NCBI RefSeq assembly: GCF_011065895.1 | Contig: NZ_JAALCR010000001.1 | Coordinates: 496,001-560,000, forward strand | Reading direction: 5' to 3' | DNA: 64,000 bases | Source: Paludisphaera rhizosphaerae | GTDB lineage: Bacteria > Planctomycetota > Planctomycetia > Isosphaerales > Isosphaeraceae | Shown here: one piece after another, positions 3 to 56,501 of the stretch | How the letters are laid out: each line of letters starts with the position of its first letter | How positions within the stretch are numbered: the stretch's first letter is position 1 | Translations under genes and position numbers: made by a program | The notes under the pieces: generated by a model | Told to the model about the DNA's origin: nothing | Database searches by the model: none | The model's input: the letters and a program-made list of their open reading frames with translations, nothing else

Positions 3-932
3 GGCCAGTACGACACGCCTCGGCTGGTGAACCTGGTCAAGCGGCTCGACCCGACCCGCCTGGTCAACGAGGCCAGCGGCGGCGGCTACACGGGGTCGGG
101 CGATGTGATGGACGTTCACAGCTATCCGCCGCCGGCCTGCCCCGAGCCCAGCAAGAACCAGGCGCTCGCCTGCGGAGAATACGGCGGGATCGGCTTCCGG
201 GTCGAGGGCCACAACTGGGCCCCGGGCGGCGGCGGTTACACCAACGTCCAGTCGCCCCAGGACCTGGTCGACCTCTACACCGAGTTCGCGGCCATGCTCA
301 AGGGCTTCCGCGATGAGAAAGGGCTGAGCGCGGCGGTCTATACCCAGATCACCGACGTCGAGACCGAGATCAACGGCCTGCTCACCTACGATCGCGTCCC
401 CAAGATGGACGTCGGCAAGATCGCCCGAGCGAACAGCCTGGAAATGAGGCTGCCGAAGTTCACCACCGTGCTGGCGACCTCCGAGAAGGAGTCGCAAACG
501 TGGAAGTACACTCTCAGTCGCCCGGCTGATGGCTGGGAGCAGCCCGGCTTCAACGACTCGGCCTGGCAGACGGGCCCGGGCGGCTTCGGCTCGCACGGGA
601 CGCCCGGCACGGGGAAGATCGGAACGGAGTGGACTTCCAATAACGTCTGGATGCGCCGGACGTTCAACCCCGGAAACCTGACGCCCGACCAGATCGCCCG
701 ACTGCTCGTCCGCGACAACCACGACGAGGACGTGCAGGTCTACATCAACGGCGTGCTGGCCTATCAGGTCGGCGGCTACTTCAACGGCTATGAAAACCGC
801 CCCATCACGGCCGAGGCCCGCAAAGCCCTGAAGCCGAACGCCGAGAACGTGCTGGCCGTCCACTGTCGCCAGTCCGCCGGCGGGCAGTACGTCGACGTCG
901 GCTTCGTCATCCGCGAACCCGACGAGAATTGA
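3..932 (+). CDS. Glycoside hydrolase family 2 (beta-galactosidase-like), C-terminal part
   Basis: The frame is open from the first bases of the window, so the 5' end of the gene lies outside it. The visible part reads like the end of a GH2 catalytic barrel: DPTRLVNEASGG, DVMDVHSYPPP and ALACGEYGGIGF, where the Glu in GEYGG sits at the place of the GH2 nucleophile, then YTQITDVETEINGLLTYDR. From about residue 150 a separate beta-sandwich begins (WKYTLSRPADGWEQPGF to the C-terminus), resembling the sugar-binding modules attached to GH2 enzymes. A role in trimming plant or algal polysaccharide is inferred from the family. The substrate cannot be told from this fragment. Confidence 0.8.
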   Translation, partial: GQYDTPRLVNLVKRLDPTRLVNEASGGGYTGSGDVMDVHSYPPPACPEPSKNQALACGEYGGIGFRVEGHNWAPGGGGYTNVQSPQDLVDLYTEFAAMLKGFRDEKGLSAAVYTQITDVETEINGLLTYDRVPKMDVGKIARANSLEMRLPKFTTVLATSEKESQTWKYTLSRPADGWEQPGFNDSAWQTGPGGFGSHGTPGTGKIGTEWTSNNVWMRRTFNPGNLTPDQIARLLVRDNHDEDVQVYINGVLAYQVGGYFNGYENRPITAEARKALKPNAENVLAVHCRQSAGGQYVDVGFVIREPDEN

Positions 933-2504: not shown

Positions 2505-4208
2505 ATGTCCCGAACCACGAGACTGTGGAAAGGCGCCGGGTTGCTGACCCTGGGCAGCATGCTGCTGTCCGGGGCCGCGTCCCGCGGCGACGACGCTCCA
2601 CCGGTCGTCGACCAATTGACCGACCTCGGCCGCCAGGCGCTCGCGCAGGGCGCAGGCCCGATGGCCCGCTCCTTCTTCCAAAAGGCGCTGGAGATCGATC
2701 CCAAGAACGCTGACGCCGCCAAGGGCCTCGCCGAGGCCAAGGCCGCTCAGGAGCGGCTGCTGCGGGTGGCCCTGCAGGAGCCCGCCGCTCCGGCCCCGGC
2801 GCCCGCCGCCCCGGCTGAAGCTCAGCCGACGCCTCCCCCTGCTCCGGCCGCCGGCCCCAACAACCGGGCCACGCTGGAGGAGTCGGACCGAAGCGACGCC
2901 ATCGCCCGCCAGCAGCTCAGCAGCGACGTGGCCCAGCGGCTCAACGCCGCCCGCGATCTGGTCCGCAACGGCCAGCCCGGCGCTGCGCTCGACGCCCTCC
3001 GCCTGGCGAAGAACGTCGTCCAGTCGGCCTCCAACATCCCTGAGAGCGACCGCAAGGCCCTCGAACGTCAGATCGAGGCCCAGTACCTCTCGACCATCCG
3101 CGACGAGGATCGCATCCTCGCCGAGCAGCTGGACCGTCGCCGCCTCGAAGCGGCCGCCGAGCAGCGCTATCGCGGCCTCTCGCAGCTGGTCGCCAACCAG
3201 TACACCATCAAGTCGATGATGGACCAGTTCGATACGCTGATGGGAGAGGGCGTCTACAACTCGCTCTACAACGGCGGCCTCGGCAACATCGCCCTCGCCA
3301 CCGCCCCGTTCTACGAGGCTCGTCTGCTCTCGCAGCACGCACGGTCTCTGATGCACAAGGGGACTCTCCCGTACAGCGACGAGGACCCGGCCCCCTACGC
3401 CGGCATGTTCGTCTCCACGACCATGGGCTTCCTCTCGCAGGAGAAGCAGTTCGAGGAGCTGAAGGAATACCGCTTCATGCTGACGATGCAAGACGTCGCC
3501 CGCGGCGCGGTCCCCTTCCCCGACAACAAGATCATCGAGTACCCCGACGCCGAGTGGTTCCGCGACATGTCCGAGCGTCGCATCGCCAAGTACGGCAAGG
3601 CTGTCGACGTCTTCGACCGCGACCCCAAGACCAAGTCGATCCTCGCCAAGCTCGACGAGCCCCTGGCGATGAACTTCCCCAACGAGACGCCGCTGGAAGA
3701 CGTCCTGAAGTACGTCAAGCAGGCGACCCAGACCCCGCAGGACAACGGCATCCCGATCTACGTCGACCCCATCGGCCTGAACGAGGCCGACAAGACGATG
3801 ACCTCCCCGGTCTCGCTCGACCTTGACGGCGTGCCCCTGAAGACCACCCTGCGTCTGATGCTCAAGCAACTCGGCCTCACCTACACGGTGAAGGACGGCT
3901 TCCTGATGATCACCTCGCAGGAGTCCGAAGACCAGCAGACCGACATCCGCGTCTACCCGGTCGCCGACCTGGCCCTCATCCCCCTCTCGCTCATCATGGG
4001 CGGCGGCGGCGGTGGTATGGGCGGTGGCATGGGCGGCATGGGCGGCGGCATGGGCGGTATGGGCGGTGGTATGGGCGGCATGGGCGGCGGCATGGGCGGT
4101 ATGGGTGGCATGGGCGGCATGGGCGGCGGTATGGGCATGATGTCCATCCCGGTCAGCCCCGCTCAGGACGACCCCGCCAGCGCGCTGATGCAAAAAAAAA
4201 GCAACTGA
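2505..4208 (+). CDS. Exported TPR protein with secretin-N-like domain and Gly-Met tail
   Basis: The protein of 567 residues starts at an ATG giving a clear signal peptide (LWKGAGLLTLGSMLLSGAAS). A TPR-like segment follows (DLGRQALAQGAGPMARSFFQ, EIDPKNADAAKGL), then a Pro/Ala linker and a long helical region. Around residues 380-490 lies a beta-alpha domain like the STN/secretin N domain (MNFPNETPLEDVLKYVKQAT, VPLKTTLRLMLKQLG, YTVKDGFLMITS). The tail from about residue 500 is built of GGM repeats. It ends just after an A9 run, with the next frame open across that run, so the annotated C-terminus may be only one of two products. The function is unknown; an envelope location is inferred from the signal peptide. 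Confidence 0.8.
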   Translation: MSRTTRLWKGAGLLTLGSMLLSGAASRGDDAPPVVDQLTDLGRQALAQGAGPMARSFFQKALEIDPKNADAAKGLAEAKAAQERLLRVALQEPAAPAPAPAAPAEAQPTPPPAPAAGPNNRATLEESDRSDAIARQQLSSDVAQRLNAARDLVRNGQPGAALDALRLAKNVVQSASNIPESDRKALERQIEAQYLSTIRDEDRILAEQLDRRRLEAAAEQRYRGLSQLVANQYTIKSMMDQFDTLMGEGVYNSLYNGGLGNIALATAPFYEARLLSQHARSLMHKGTLPYSDEDPAPYAGMFVSTTMGFLSQEKQFEELKEYRFMLTMQDVARGAVPFPDNKIIEYPDAEWFRDMSERRIAKYGKAVDVFDRDPKTKSILAKLDEPLAMNFPNETPLEDVLKYVKQATQTPQDNGIPIYVDPIGLNEADKTMTSPVSLDLDGVPLKTTLRLMLKQLGLTYTVKDGFLMITSQESEDQQTDIRVYPVADLALIPLSLIMGGGGGGMGGGMGGMGGGMGGMGGGMGGMGGGMGGMGGMGGMGGGMGMMSIPVSPAQDDPASALMQKKSN

Positions 4209-4237
4209 ACGGTCTTGGGGCGGGCTCCGGCCGCCCC
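4192..4237 (+). promoter_or_regulatory. Candidate -1 frameshift or transcript-slippage module
   Basis: Nine consecutive A residues (4192-4200) followed by G lie three codons before the stop of the upstream gene. The zero frame reads CAA AAA AAA AGC AAC TGA, so a -1 slip on A AAA AAA gives AAG CAA CTG and continues openly into the next gene. A 7-base-pair stem GGGGCGG / CCGCCCC (4217-4223, 4231-4237) follows 16 bases later. This matches the layout of known dnaX-like slippery sites, but the spacing is longer than usual, so RNA polymerase slippage is also possible. Confidence 0.55.
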
Positions 4238-4243
4238 TCTGAC

Positions 4244-5518
4244 ATGCCCACGCGGGATCCGTCCGGCCGAAAGGCGGCGGATCCCGCCGGCGTTCTAGAG
4301 AACTCCCAGACCACGAAAGGGCAGCAGCCGTCGGTCAAGCCCTCCACCTCATCCGCGACCAAGGGGCTGATTCCCGTCAGCGGAGCGCCGGCGGTCCGGC
4401 CTTCCTCGGCCGGAGATCCTTACGCCTTCTGGACCGAGTACTACGCCAAGCACGACGAGACCCCTGACCAGCTCCACGAGACCGTCCGGCTCCTGAACCA
4501 GAGCGGAAAGACCCGAGACGTCCACGCAGCGATCCTCGGCTATCTGAAGAAGCGGCCCAAGAGCGCTGAGTTCTGGATGTACGAGGCCCTCGCCCTGGCC
4601 ATCGAGATGAACGGCGGCAAGCCCGAGGACATCAAAACGGCCCTCGACTACGCCGCGGATCTCGCCCAGCGGTCGCACAACCCCAACCACCTCGTGAGCG
4701 CGGCTGACAAGCTCCTGCTCAAGGGGTACACCGACCGCGTCGGCGCCCTGCTCGACGAGGCCGCCGAGAAGATCCCCCACCGCGCCGAGCCGATCGCCAT
4801 GTCGATCAACCTGGCGCTCAAGACCCGCGACCCCAAACGGATGGCTGAGTCGGTCGACCAACTCCTCTCCCTCGGCTGGCCCGGCCAGGACGACTACCTC
4901 CGCGCCGAGGCCCGCAAACAGGTCGAGGCTCTGGCGAAAACGCTCACCGAGGAAGGCCGAACCGACGAGGCCGAGAAGCTCCGCGCGGCACTCCCGGCGG
5001 CGGAAGCTCGCGACGTCTACGTCCGCCTGTCATGGGACGGCGAGGCCGACTTCGACCTGGTCGTGGAGGAGCCGCTCGGCGCCCCCGTCTCGTACGACAT
5101 GCCGCGATCGGTCTTCGGCGGCGCCCTGATCAAGAACGGCAAGGGGAGCCGGCCCGAGGAGGTCTACGTCTGCCCTCGCGGGTTCAACGGCAACTACACC
5201 ATCCGGATCATGCCCATCGCCGTGGACCCAGCGAAGCCCACCACTCGCCTGACTCTGGAGACGATCACCCACGAAGGCGACGCCAAGGAGTCCAAGAAGA
5301 CCGTCGTCCTGGCCCCCAACGACCCCAACGCCAAGCCCGTCGTCGTCTCCCTGACCGACGGTCGCCGGACCAAGGCCCTCCCCTTCGTGAGCGCCACCGC
5401 CGTCCGCGAGGCCTTCGAGGAGACCATCAAGGAACGAGCCGCCAAGGAGAAAGCCAGGAAGGACGCCGCCCCCAAGCGCCCCGCCGCCACGCCGAGGAAC
5501 GCGATTCCAATTCAGTGA
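4244..5518 (+). CDS. TPR-like hypothetical protein, probable C-terminal half of the preceding gene
   Basis: 424 residues if begun at ATG 4244, but there is no Shine-Dalgarno sequence there, no signal peptide, and the frame stays open upstream through the A9 run of the preceding gene. The first 55 residues are low complexity (linker-like). Residues 60-245 are helical repeats (AFWTEYYAKHDETPDQL, YLKKRPKSAEFWMYEALALA, TEEGRTDEAEKLRAALP). A beta-rich domain follows (VYVRLSWDGEADFDLVVEEP) and a basic helical tail ends it. Read with a -1 shift the two genes make a 1,004-residue protein. I do not recognise a named function. Confidence 0.75.
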   Translation: MPTRDPSGRKAADPAGVLENSQTTKGQQPSVKPSTSSATKGLIPVSGAPAVRPSSAGDPYAFWTEYYAKHDETPDQLHETVRLLNQSGKTRDVHAAILGYLKKRPKSAEFWMYEALALAIEMNGGKPEDIKTALDYAADLAQRSHNPNHLVSAADKLLLKGYTDRVGALLDEAAEKIPHRAEPIAMSINLALKTRDPKRMAESVDQLLSLGWPGQDDYLRAEARKQVEALAKTLTEEGRTDEAEKLRAALPAAEARDVYVRLSWDGEADFDLVVEEPLGAPVSYDMPRSVFGGALIKNGKGSRPEEVYVCPRGFNGNYTIRIMPIAVDPAKPTTRLTLETITHEGDAKESKKTVVLAPNDPNAKPVVVSLTDGRRTKALPFVSATAVREAFEETIKERAAKEKARKDAAPKRPAATPRNAIPIQ

Positions 5519-5629: not shown

Positions 5630-6442
5630 ATGCTGTTTCACAATTCTCGTGGAAGCCGGCTCGCCAGGATGGCCGCCGGCCTGGCCGCGTTGCTGATCTC
5701 CTCTTCGGTCCAGGGCTCGCCGCTCTCCTACACCGTGACTGACCTGGGAACACAGCCGATCTCGTTCACTCCCTCGGCCGCTCCCACTCGGACGGCGACG
5801 CAGCCCCCGCTCGCGATGTATGCCCCGATTTGGGATCAAATGACGCACGGGAACCCGGCTTACGCCTACAACTTCATCACGACTTCGGTCGCCAACGCCG
5901 GTGGCCTCACTGCCTATATTGAGAGCGTAGGCGTCGACGGGCATGAAACCGGCTCTGCCGCCGCGGGTTTGTACGTGGCTCGTCAAGACGCATCCGGTGC
6001 CTGGCATGTCCTTAACGAAATTGGCTCTTCCACCAGCGACCATGGATACGGTTCCAGGCCCAACGGCGGCTTGTACATCGGTGGTATCAATGCCCTCGAC
6101 CAGGTTCTCGCGGGATGGATTCCCCAAGGCTATAGCTCTCACGGGTACGATTATTGGTATACATCCAAGGTCTGGGTCTACGACGAGAAGACAAACACGA
6201 CGCTGGACATGTCGAACGTCCTGGGCCCCGGATGGGGAGCGATCCGCACCGGAGGGATCGACGATGACGGCCGCATCCTCCTCAGCGCTTACTCGGAGTC
6301 GTCGAATCTCACCGAGCAACACGAGTTCCTGTTGACGCCGACCGACCTCTCCGCTGCCCCCGTCCCCGAGCCCTCAACCTTCCTCGTCCTCGCACTGGGT
6401 GCCGGAGCATTCGCGATCCGCCGGTCGCGGCGGGTTGGCTGA
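5630..6442 (+). CDS. PEP-CTERM sorting domain protein
   Basis: 270 residues. An N-terminal signal peptide (RMAAGLAALLISSSVQGS) is followed by about 210 residues rich in Gly, Ser, Tyr and Thr with short beta-repeat-like units (GGINALDQVLAGWIP, GGIDDDGRILLSAYS). The C-terminus is a textbook PEP-CTERM signal: VPEPST, a hydrophobic helix (FLVLALGAGAFAI) and an RRSRR tail. Such proteins are exported, then cut and anchored by an exosortase, in bacteria that make exopolysaccharide; no exosortase gene is visible here. The two internal repeats resemble the HAF-type repeat seen in other secreted proteins. Confidence 0.85.
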   Translation: MLFHNSRGSRLARMAAGLAALLISSSVQGSPLSYTVTDLGTQPISFTPSAAPTRTATQPPLAMYAPIWDQMTHGNPAYAYNFITTSVANAGGLTAYIESVGVDGHETGSAAAGLYVARQDASGAWHVLNEIGSSTSDHGYGSRPNGGLYIGGINALDQVLAGWIPQGYSSHGYDYWYTSKVWVYDEKTNTTLDMSNVLGPGWGAIRTGGIDDDGRILLSAYSESSNLTEQHEFLLTPTDLSAAPVPEPSTFLVLALGAGAFAIRRSRRVG

Positions 6443-53459: not shown

Positions 53460-53588
53460 CAAAAAAACCCATGAACCGACTTCCTCGCTGCTCCGACCGT
53501 GTCAAGAGGTCTTGGCGCTTGCAAGTCTCCGCGCCTTGCCGCACATTGAACGCTCACCAACCACATCCTCCGACGAGGCTGAAGGGAC

Positions 53589-54806
53589 ATGCGACATCCC
53601 ACCGCAAGACGCATTGCGCAATTCGCTCTGACGGCTCTGGCGTTCCTGACCTGTCCGGTCTGGGCCGTCTCCCAGACGACGCCCCACAGGCTCCGGATCT
53701 CCACTCCCGTCCCGGCCGACATCCCCGTGACGCTGGCCGCGCCCGCCGGCCTGTCCCCAGGGCTTTACAGTTTGAAACCGGCCGATGGCCCGGCGATCCC
53801 CGCAGTCGTCCTGTCCGAGGGCGAGCATCGCTCACTCACCTTCATCGCCGGGGGAACGTCTAACTCAACGGAATTCACCCTCACGCCAGCCTCGGCCCCG
53901 ACCAAGCCGGAAGGGGGCGTGTCGATCACGTCGGAAGGCTCGAATCTGAAGATCGACATCAACGGCGCTCCGGTGGCGGTGCACCGAATCGACGGGCCTT
54001 ACAAGCCGTTCCTCTTCCCATTGCTCGGTCCCTCGGGTCAGCGAATGACTCGCTCGTACCCCATGGAAAAGATCGAGGGCGACGACACGGACCATCCTCA
54101 CCACGAGTCCTTCTGGTTCACCCACGGCAAGGTCAACGGCATCGACTTCTGGGACGTCAAGAAAGGATTGATCCGTGAGACGGCCCGCAAGATCGAGGCT
54201 GCGGGCCCCGTGCTGGGACGGGTCCGAACCCACGACGACTGGATCAGCCCAGACGGCTCCAAGGTCTGCGAGGACGAGCGCGTCCTGACCATCTACAACA
54301 CCAAGGGCGTGCGCATCCTCGACTTCGATGCGACCCTCAAAGCGACCGACAAACCGGTCGTTATGGGCGAAACGAAGGAAGGGAGCTTCGGTCTACGGGT
54401 GGCCTCGTCGATGGACGCCGAGCACAAGGACAAGACGAAGCCGAACGGCCAGATCGTCAACGCCGAAGGCCTCAAGGACGCCGCGGCCTGGGGCAAGCCC
54501 TCGGCGTGGGTCGACTACTCCGGACCGATCGACGGCAAGACCGCCGGCATCACGATCCTCAATAGTCCCCGGAGCTTCCGCTACCCCACGACCTGGCACG
54601 TCCGGACATATGGCCTCTTCGCCGCGAATCCGTTCGGAGGTCCCGACTTCAAGACCCCTGGATATGGGGAATACACCATCGCGCCAGGCCAGTCGATCCG
54701 GTTCGCATATCGCGTGATCCTTCACGACGGCGCAGGCGACCCCGCCGACATCGCCCGCTGGTTCGCTCTCTACGCCGAGCCGCCGGCCGCCTCCTGGGGC
54801 GAGTGA
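53589..54806 (+). CDS. PmoA-family (DUF6807) secreted protein
   Basis: 405 residues with a signal peptide (FALTALAFLTCPVWAVSQ). The body is the DUF6807/PmoA-like fold: YKPFLFPLLGPSGQRMTRSY, DHPHHESFWFTHGKVNGIDF with its His cluster, and NPFGGPDFKTPGYGEYTI. The name PmoA is a family label; it does not imply methane oxidation. These proteins are abundant in planctomycetes, often with glycan-degrading enzymes, and are thought to act on sugars. AAGGG precedes the ATG by three bases. The last 37 bases overlap the convergent cyclo-ligase gene. Confidence 0.88.
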   Translation: MRHPTARRIAQFALTALAFLTCPVWAVSQTTPHRLRISTPVPADIPVTLAAPAGLSPGLYSLKPADGPAIPAVVLSEGEHRSLTFIAGGTSNSTEFTLTPASAPTKPEGGVSITSEGSNLKIDINGAPVAVHRIDGPYKPFLFPLLGPSGQRMTRSYPMEKIEGDDTDHPHHESFWFTHGKVNGIDFWDVKKGLIRETARKIEAAGPVLGRVRTHDDWISPDGSKVCEDERVLTIYNTKGVRILDFDATLKATDKPVVMGETKEGSFGLRVASSMDAEHKDKTKPNGQIVNAEGLKDAAAWGKPSAWVDYSGPIDGKTAGITILNSPRSFRYPTTWHVRTYGLFAANPFGGPDFKTPGYGEYTIAPGQSIRFAYRVILHDGAGDPADIARWFALYAEPPAASWGE

Positions 54807-55387
54807 GGCCGGACCAGGATACGAGTCGCCGTGACCACCCCATTCAGGGGTGCGTCATGGGGCTCGACGGGAAGCGCGTCGAGGATCTGGACGTCGAACG
54901 CCGCGGCCCAGACCTCGACGCCCTTTCGGAGTTTCGGCAGAAGGCGGTCGTAATGCCCCGCTCCTCGGCCGACTCGGTTACAGCGCGCATCGAAGGCGAC
55001 GCCCGGCGCAAGGACCCACTCAATCGACTCGGGGGCGATGTCCGGCGCGTCAGGTCGAGGTTCGGGAATCCCGAGCGTCCCCGCGCGCAGATCGACCGCC
55101 GGGTCGCTGATCGCGTGCAGTACCATCCCTCTTGAGGCACGATCGACCCGCGGGCAGACCAGTCGCTTACCGGACTTCAAGGCGTCCGAAAGCAAAGGGG
55201 CCGTATCGATCTCTTCCGGGAAGGCCTTGATATAGAGGAGAACGCTCTCAGCCGCCTGATACGACGGAATCTCGATCACCCTATCCAGGATGCGCCGCTC
55301 CTGCTCGGCCCGATCTGATTCGCTCAGGTTCAGGACGGCGGAGATCGTCTCGACTCTTAGACGTCGTTTCTCAGGCGTCGTGGGCAT
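54770..55387 (-). CDS. 5-Formyltetrahydrofolate cyclo-ligase
   Basis: 205 residues from ATG 55387. The enzyme (YgfA/Fau) converts 5-formyl- to 5,10-methenyl-tetrahydrofolate with ATP. Typical elements: KRRLRVETISAVLNLSESD at the start, VLLYIKAFPEEIDT, and the C-terminal LAPGVAFDARCNRVGRGAGH followed by YDRLL. The gene starts 28 bases after the U-run of the RNA gene described next, so it depends on read-through or a promoter I cannot see. ssrS-ygfA linkage is the known arrangement in many proteobacteria. Confidence 0.92.
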   Translation of the reverse strand: MPTTPEKRRLRVETISAVLNLSESDRAEQERRILDRVIEIPSYQAAESVLLYIKAFPEEIDTAPLLSDALKSGKRLVCPRVDRASRGMVLHAISDPAVDLRAGTLGIPEPRPDAPDIAPESIEWVLAPGVAFDARCNRVGRGAGHYDRLLPKLRKGVEVWAAAFDVQILDALPVEPHDAPLNGVVTATRILVRPHSPQEAAGGSA

Positions 55388-55414
55388 GCGACCGCTCTGG
55401 GGCCGTCGGCCCAG

Positions 55415-55461
55415 AAAAAAAATGAGCCCGTGACTCCCCATCGAAATGGGGGGACACGGGC
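55415..55461 (-). terminator. Rho-independent terminator of the RNA gene
   Basis: Minus strand stem GCCCGTG / CACGGGC with inner CCCCAT / ATGGGG around a short loop (55426-55461), followed by TCAT and eight T residues (55415-55422). It is the strongest terminator in the window. Its 5' arm is the same sequence that closes the 6S-like stem, so the two folds compete. Confidence 0.85.
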
Positions 55462-55647
55462 GGAAGACCTCCACCGCAATGCCGTTGAGGCGCTTTTGAG
55501 AACCCGCAGTTCAGGTGGGAGCCGCAGACCTTCGAGAAGACTAGCTCCAAGAGGCCGATTTGGGATCCCTACGGGTTAAACGTTGGTTCGCCAAAAGGAC
55601 CGCCCCGTGTCGAACATGGCAGAGGCTCGTCCAGCCGAAGCCGGACT
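55415..55647 (-). ncRNA. ssrS: Candidate 6S RNA
   Basis: A non-coding transcript is bounded by a strong promoter and a strong terminator directly upstream of the cyclo-ligase, the classical place of 6S RNA. The sequence can form a closing stem (ACACGGGGCGG at 55600-55610 with CCGCCCGUGU at 55454-55463), an open middle, and an upper stem (AACCCGUAG with CUGCGGGUU). This is the long-hairpin-with-bubble plan of 6S RNA, which binds the housekeeping polymerase by mimicking an open promoter. The closed unit is about 165 bases, the primary transcript about 233 with a 5' UUCG hairpin. I infer identity from shape and context; I have not matched a covariance model. Confidence 0.6.
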
Positions 55648-55652
55648 CCCGG

Positions 55653-55681
55653 ATACTAGCCGATGAGGCCGGAGAAATCAA
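55653..55681 (-). promoter_or_regulatory. Promoter of the 6S-like RNA gene
   Basis: Minus strand TTGATT, 17 bases, TAGTAT, among the best matches to the housekeeping consensus in this window. The expected start is near 55647. Confidence 0.7.
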
Positions 55682-55727
55682 GGAAAACCGGCCCTCGCTA
55701 TGAACGCCCGAACATGTTTCTTTTAAC

Positions 55728-56501
55728 TCAGCCTGGGGCCTGGCGTTCGGCGTTTTGGTGCTCGGTCAGGCGACGGATTTCGTCGCGGATCCGGGCGGCC
55801 TCTTCGTAGCTCTCGTGGGCGATGGCTTCGCGCAGTTCGTCCTCGAGTCGAACGAGCGGGCCCTTGGGTCGATCCCGGTCGACGTCGGCCCGCCAGCGGA
55901 GCAGGAAGTTCAACTCGGAGCAGTCGGCCTCGCGGTCGGCCTGATTATACTCGCCGAGGAAGTCTCGGATTCGGCGGATTCCCTCGTCGATCCGGTCAAG
56001 CGCCGCCCCGACGTCGCTTCTCCCCAGTTCCTTGAGAGCGCGGGCGCGCGTGTTCATCATGGTGACGTAGGGACGATACTGATCGAACTCGATCTTGTCG
56101 CGGTTCCTCTCCGCATGGCGCGAGACGAAGGCGAAAAGGCGCAGGTTCCGCTCCGTGTCCCGAGCCACCATGTCGTAGAGCTGCAGGTGAAAGGCGGAGA
56201 GATAGCGGTGGTAATACTGCAGGCCTTCGCGCATCAAGGCCGCACAGTCGGACGGCTCGACAGTGAACTCGTCGCCGGCGTCGAGAGCCTCCTGGCGGCG
56301 GTTCTCGAAGTGCTCGAGCAGCGATTCGACTCCGAACGGCCGACGACCGTCGGGTCGGCCCTCGCATTCCATCTGGAGCACGCCCAGGTCGACGCGCATC
56401 TGGATCTTGTCGCGGCCGTCGTCGCCGGTGATGAGGCGGACCTGCAGATCGTCGGGATGGAAATCCCAGTCCGCCAGAACTCCGGTGATATCAAAACTCA
56501 A
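55728..56501 (-). CDS. UVR-motif protein of unknown function
   Basis: 257 residues from a TTG start with GGGGGGAG five bases upstream, which I find convincing. The C-terminus is a UvrB/UvrC (UVR) motif (VRLEDELREAIAHESYEEAA, RIRDEIRRL), a small helical hairpin used for protein contacts. The first 200 residues are helical and unfamiliar (LQYYHRYLSAFHLQLYDMVA, RNRDKIEFDQYRPYVTMMN). The protein lacks the nuclease and helicase parts of UvrB or UvrC, so it is not a repair enzyme by itself. McsA-like or regulatory roles are possible. Confidence 0.82.
   Translation of the reverse strand: MSFDITGVLADWDFHPDDLQVRLITGDDGRDKIQMRVDLGVLQMECEGRPDGRRPFGVESLLEHFENRRQEALDAGDEFTVEPSDCAALMREGLQYYHRYLSAFHLQLYDMVARDTERNLRLFAFVSRHAERNRDKIEFDQYRPYVTMMNTRARALKELGRSDVGAALDRIDEGIRRIRDFLGEYNQADREADCSELNFLLRWRADVDRDRPKGPLVRLEDELREAIAHESYEEAARIRDEIRRLTEHQNAERQAPG

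Follow-up and report, generated by a model that had tools for sequence, protein, structure and literature searches.

A conserved A9 junction between two reading frames in planctomycete genomes: a probable site of programmed RNA polymerase slippage

Two reading frames meeting at nine adenines

How is a gene to be read that stops a few codons after a run of nine adenines, when a second frame is open across the same run and continues far beyond it? The question is raised by a stretch of 64,000 nucleotides from Paludisphaera rhizosphaerae (hereafter the window), for which an initial annotation proposed that a -1 slip fuses two reading frames, and left programmed frameshifting, transcript slippage and a one-base error as the options. 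Inspection of the window letters confirms the A9 run (4192..4200, + strand), the -1 change of frame and the early stop. ORF1 (2505..4208, + strand, 567 aa), annotated here as an exported TPR / coiled-coil protein and the putative short product, has GGAG 10 nt 5' of its ATG and reads CAA AAA AAA AGC AAC TGA at the junction. The gene ends at 4208, three codons after the run, and the TGA itself (4206..4208, + strand) stands 5 nt 3' of the run. ORF2 (4193..5518, + strand) is the -1 frame, which has no stop across A9, is open up to 5518 and would supply the C-terminal part of the long product, 441 aa counted from the run. Joined, the 563 residues before the slip and the 441 after it give the 1,004 residues stated in the initial annotation, whose remark that the second gene lacks a ribosome site at its first ATG also holds, no GGAG-type site being present in the 20 nt before position 4244. 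Downstream in the window, the gene at 5630-6442 resembles a PEP-CTERM-type exported protein with the C-terminal VPEPSTFLVLALGAGAFAIRRSRR, a name given from sequence alone.

Export of ORF1 is inferred by eye from its N-terminus, which is signal-like and is followed by TPR helices, a long coil, a weak secretin-N-like (STN) stretch and a Gly-Gly-Met tail. Pfam matches to STN (E 4e-4) and TPR_19 (E 8e-4) fall short of the curated cut-offs, an NCBIfam match to an Amuc_1098-type pilus protein (E 7e-6) falls far short of its own, and a sequence search of the PDB returns TPR proteins; a structure model of ORF1 was too poor for use (mean pLDDT 48.5). ORF2 is modelled as a disordered linker, TPR helices and a beta-sandwich (mean pLDDT 67.5), the helices at 76-271 mostly above a pLDDT of 90 and the strands at 275-387 with lower confidence, and Foldseek returns generic TPR matches (E ~4e-4). 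Sequence searches with ORF2 gave only weak Pfam matches (E 0.16 or worse), no NCBIfam match and nothing under E 0.03 in the PDB. Our likeliest guess for the product is a protein of two lengths that is either an exported scaffold or associated with a pilus or secretin.

The presence of A9 at this place exceeds chance: the window's 8.05-Mb genome holds six copies of exact A9 and none of A10 or longer. The other five copies look intergenic, without gene annotation as proof; four of them adjoin a GC palindrome, and no open frame of more than 161 codons covers the fifth. Across 20 relatives the exact A9 count runs from 3 (G025) to 107 (G031), and the junction site is among the listed A9 places in seven split-gene relatives (G001, G002, G003, G017, G024, G025 and G028). 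When 20 other A9 sites were taken as a control, 13 had a stem of at least 6 pairs starting no more than 6 nt from the run. One of these (L178, G025:C1:2495635-2495645) could be another intragenic A9, with a 357-codon open frame on the fetched stretch, and it is a possible further slippage site. Two peculiarities of A9 distribution were also observed: 22 of 27 exact A9 runs in G047, a genome of another family (f3), share the context GAAAAAAAAAT, unlike the Isosphaeraceae genomes listed alongside, and exact A9 runs number 87 and 107 in the Singulisphaera-type genomes G014 and G031, whereas the other eight Isosphaeraceae genomes searched have 3-10.

Conservation of the junction in two families and its layout elsewhere

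Relatives were searched with the second frame as query, and the junction was read in 114 planctomycete genomes of two families, 44 from the Isosphaeraceae (f1) and 70 from a second family (f2). The former are the genomes with a match among 45 searched, only G034 (89% complete) having none; the latter are all f2 genomes in a class sample that was itself drawn from a larger group. An A run stands at the joint in every one of the 114 genomes, as A9 in 110, A8 in two and A10 in two (G064 and G164), so that the run is a nearly invariant A9 over 53 genera. Both A8 runs (G158 and G254) are followed by G and present the heptamer A_AAA_AAG, as in E. coli dnaX. AAG is the usual Lys codon in f1 (AAA 23%), yet G breaks the run in none of the 44 f1 genomes. 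The codon phase of the run is 0 in 61 genomes, 1 in 42 and 2 in 6, counts that take in the A8 and A10 genomes, and it is unread in 5.

The frame step is -1 in 105 genomes, +1 in two that have the same A9 (G143 and G075), absent in the two A10 genomes, and unread in five whose ORF1 gave no scored match. G084, a congener of G143, has the same +1 layout, though its ORF1 likewise gave no scored match; the step is -1 in G188, a congener of G075. The ORF1 stop lies 0-27 nt 3' of the run in 107/107 genomes with a measured step, and the third frame closes within the same 27 nt in 71 of them. The two parts share a single frame in the A10 genomes, which still hold the stop at which a copy with nine A's would end. 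ORF2 has a conserved Trp column, with W in 108 of 114 genomes; one Trp of ORF2 is counted in 114 of 114. Only split genes were counted here, which limits the run lengths that can be seen and weighs against the polymerase reading given below, although other lengths were possible with shifted flanks. Comparison of the genomes establishes that two families have kept the A run together with the stop soon after it and a second frame free of stops.

As a check the initial annotation had proposed to look among relatives for a single long gene or for a conserved A run with the frame change. The latter is what f1 and f2 provide; the former is found in f3, f4, f5, f7, f17 and f20, where both parts form one frame in 17/17 readable genomes. 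These single-frame relatives comprise about 1,200-1,620 residues where the contig allows (L109 has no more of ORF1 than its end), and in the 17 genomes A runs between the ends of the two matched parts do not exceed 6. G041 (f6), G057 (f5) and G051 (f3) could not be classed, since the contig ends before ORF1. Three scanned single-frame relatives (L044, L047 and L053) have an N-terminal VWA domain, for which the Pfam domain search gave no match in the window's ORF1. In a tree of the second part (84 rows, quick method only), f1 and f2 fall into separate clades, f1 beside f3, f4 and f6, and f2 beside f5 and others; the split layout has therefore either arisen twice or is old and repeatedly lost.

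Polymerase, ribosome and the stem beyond the run

What joins the two frames? A sequencing or assembly error is practically ruled out: homopolymers are error-prone, which could account for the two A10 genomes, but the same run recurs in 110 assemblies, including the complete Singulisphaera acidiphila sequence, and with this the third option of the initial annotation falls. Because the run is kept almost without exception, the A9 junction is, on comparative grounds, a recoding site of long standing rather than a product of faulty sequencing. That two independent operon genes meet at an incidental A run is extremely improbable. The case that would have refuted the initial annotation, two separate genes without an A run, is met only in f16 (two genomes; L129 and L139), which has two gapped, non-overlapping ORFs, the second with its own signal-like start as judged by eye; and in 89 of the 114 genomes at least one ATG, GTG or TTG precedes the conserved Trp in the second frame. 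In all 114 f1 and f2 genomes, however, the A run is at the joint, the 17 genomes of other families have one frame, the window's ATG lacks a Shine-Dalgarno sequence, and the second frame of the remaining 25 genomes cannot start alone because no ATG, GTG or TTG occurs from its upstream stop to the conserved Trp. Judged in this way, ORF2 is not likely to be a free-standing gene. Termination-reinitiation was also considered and rejected, since many junctions read CTGA or TTGA, with CTG or TTG overlapping the stop, and others CTAA or GTAA, which leaves no common start codon. Very improbable, too, is a phase-variable contingency locus, in which replication slippage would toggle between A9 (off) and A10 (on) from cell to cell. 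The existence of A10 and A8 genomes would suit it, but several lengths would be expected where 110 of 114 genomes have one, and the off-frame early stop is retained while the second frame is still coding.

The choice thus lies between ribosome and polymerase. Programmed -1 ribosomal frameshifting at A_AAA_AAA or A_AAA_AAG would join the frames on a faithful RNA copy, and we regard it as unlikely, though not negligible. The slippery heptamer that it needs is in frame in the -1 genomes, and in two genomes the A8 run plus G matches the classical site of E. coli. Shifting in a reporter rises with the A run, from 10% (7) to 40% (9) and 63% (11), but the passage available from this source does not tell ribosome from polymerase (PMC3711429). 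Other features expected of ribosomal frameshifting are missing. As an upstream Shine-Dalgarno-like stimulator, GGAGG occurs in 1/114 and AGGAG in 0/114 genomes within the 20 nt upstream, and a stem-loop a few nucleotides downstream is not conserved, z falling below -2 at +5..55 in only 8 of 52 genera. The GC hairpin that the initial annotation placed just downstream is present (~4217..4237, bounds approximate, + strand) and folds moderately (z -2.1), but its position is not conserved in relatives; a nearby hairpin was rejected as frameshift stimulator, the stretch +5..55 being weakly folded (mean z ~-0.8 over 52 genera). Nor is the step always -1, and ribosomal frameshifting of the -1 kind cannot yield the +1 step of G143, G084 and G075; it also leaves unexplained why nine A's, and not seven, are kept. 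Finally, the window's genome has both tRNA-Lys anticodons (CTT, plus a single TTT found, which lies in a tRNA array; a few tRNA matches were left unscanned), a situation tied to polymerase slippage in Thermus in the part of the source that was available (PMC5009743). The array is dense, with 26 tRNA genes on one 56-kb contig (G000:C33:38836-39223 and 53485-55838; L216 and L217), and includes both tRNA-Lys anticodons. Dense tRNA arrays are carried by some phages or plasmids.

We consider it probable that the two ORFs are one gene with programmed RNA-polymerase slippage, a proposal made without RNA or protein data. The polymerase is favoured because the A9 length is constant across all three codon phases, because +1 layouts occur in two genera with the same A9, and because there is neither a Shine-Dalgarno element nor a conserved nearby hairpin. 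Transcriptional slippage calls for some nine or more consecutive A or T within a gene (A9 or A10 in 112/114, A8 in two), for conservation of the run and of both downstream frames (53 genera), and for a shift that may go in either direction (-1 in 105 genomes, +1 in two, a third +1 by congener), and all three are met. Nine A's is the run length named for polymerase slippage in the available parts of two papers (PMC1088944, PMC5009743). It fits as well that the f1 run is unbroken by AAG, where the ribosomal A_AAA_AAG would allow a G, and that A10 is the fused natural variant. Against the polymerase, A9 holds the ribosomal heptamer A_AAA_AAA in every phase, G158 and G254 carry the E. coli dnaX heptamer, folding just 3' of the run is slightly stronger than farther on (paired difference -0.42, p 0.04), and the +1 genomes are few, two measured and one by analogy. 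The recoding foreseen in the initial annotation is supported, and of its two mechanisms slippage by RNA polymerase is somewhat better backed by the evidence than a shift by the ribosome.

By this inference, nascent RNA would slip on the template while RNA polymerase copies A9, and part of the mRNA would carry 10 A's, or 8 or 11 where the lineage is of the +1 type. Translation of faithful mRNA would give the short exported protein (567 aa), which ends a few codons past the run, and that of slipped mRNA the full-length protein (1,004 aa), to which a second TPR block and a beta-sandwich are added on a flexible linker. One gene would in this way make two products with a common N-terminus, as in Thermus dnaX.

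A scan of folding revealed, unexpectedly, a strong stem at +40 to +110 after the run. At +40..90, z is below -2 in 14 of 20 f1 genera and 12 of 32 f2 genera, and in most genera that have the run a stem lies about 45-110 nt 3' of it, often with a T-rich stretch behind. The fold profile of the linker used one genome per genus, the first listed (20 f1, 32 f2 and 15 other genera), and needed enough flank and the Trp motif by pattern, three genera without an A run being lost for want of the motif; the 15 include f6, f16 and one contig-end f3 genome, which are not shown to be fused. The minimum z of the linker is below -4 in 39/52 genera with the run against 0/15 without it, and below -3 in 45/52 against 4/15. 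A strong stem, defined as one above the 99th percentile of single-base-shuffled sequences, is present in 77 of 114 genomes (36/44 f1, 41/70 f2) and in 3 of 114 control stretches, leaving 37 genomes below the threshold. The stem finder takes the best pairing by design, so that the evidence is the excess over shuffles and controls and not the pairing itself, and stems with long arms may contain chance outer pairs. Strong stems start about 46 nt past the ORF1 stop and have about 17 pairs, and their arms diverge between genera (mean pairwise identity 0.30 and 0.32). They occur in the measured +1 genomes and the A8 genomes, the stem of the congener G084 being just under the threshold; among the A10 genomes, G064 has a strong stem, whereas all that G164 has is a short stem immediately 3' of the run.

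The GC-rich stem required of an intrinsic terminator is thus met in the 77 genomes. The T fraction in the 8 nt after the stem is 0.33 in f1 and 0.40 in f2, against 0.14 and 0.19, and drops to background farther on, but at least 4 T of 8 are found in only 10 of 40 genera. Many relatives have a terminator-like stem. In the window the counterpart of the stems found at similar distance in most genera is a 15-bp stem-loop inside ORF2 (4252..4287, + strand; z -3.9 for 4246-4300), which folds more strongly than the GC hairpin of the initial annotation. Its T tail is weak, and a consensus terminator scan of the window reports none at this stem, which is evidence against the terminator idea for this locus. 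We read the stem as a terminator-like element or as a 3'-end element of the short transcript, and stems of the 4252-4287 type may be terminators kept silent when slipped mRNA is translated. On a faithful transcript, the ribosome would leave at the stop, the stem would fold, and transcription would end or an mRNA 3' end would form; on slipped mRNA, the ribosome would trail the polymerase through the stem and suppress it. The slip would then set both the frame and whether the remainder of the gene is transcribed; such gating is inferred, and we offer it only as a tentative possibility.

Significance and comparison with known systems

A PMC search by title and the start of the abstract yielded, among the matches listed, no paper describing this gene, and to our knowledge few cases of programmed slippage in bacterial chromosomal, non-mobile genes are known. 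Across 53 genera the putative slip site keeps one length here; the copies of the two families that carry it are not sister groups in the gene tree, and the natural variants (A8, A10, +1, fused and truly split) form a ready-made experimental series. Gene finders that do not expect a slip would report two proteins where one exported protein has two forms. If functional, the linked stem would couple termination to slippage in transcription.

The present genes resemble intrinsic terminators and translation-coupled attenuators in having a stem, often T-rich behind, about 46 nt past a stop; they differ in that the stem lies here within the long frame, and its T tail is often imperfect and, in the window, poor. 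The orfA/orfB pairs of IS elements share overlapping frames joined at a slippery run, as far as the available parts of the sources describe them (PMC1088944, PMC5009743), but nothing mobile was noticed around our locus, and there is usually one strong match per genome. For the two-ORF dnaX of Chlorobi and for Shigella spa13, the available excerpts describe an extension that is read when the frame shifts in or close to a run of A's, the short form having its stop nearby (PMC3711429, PMC5009743); the run of the Chlorobi cluster varies from 7 to 10 A's in the excerpt concerned (PMC3711429), whereas ours is a near-constant A9. Thermus thermophilus dnaX, as covered by the parts of two papers at hand, likewise has A9 in a coding gene, two products with a common N-terminus and stops nearby (PMC1088944, PMC5009743). 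Its protein is unrelated, and here a terminator-like stem follows the run; moreover, a faithful copy yields the long product in Thermus, whereas in the planctomycete gene the faithful copy would yield the short product and the slipped copy the long one.
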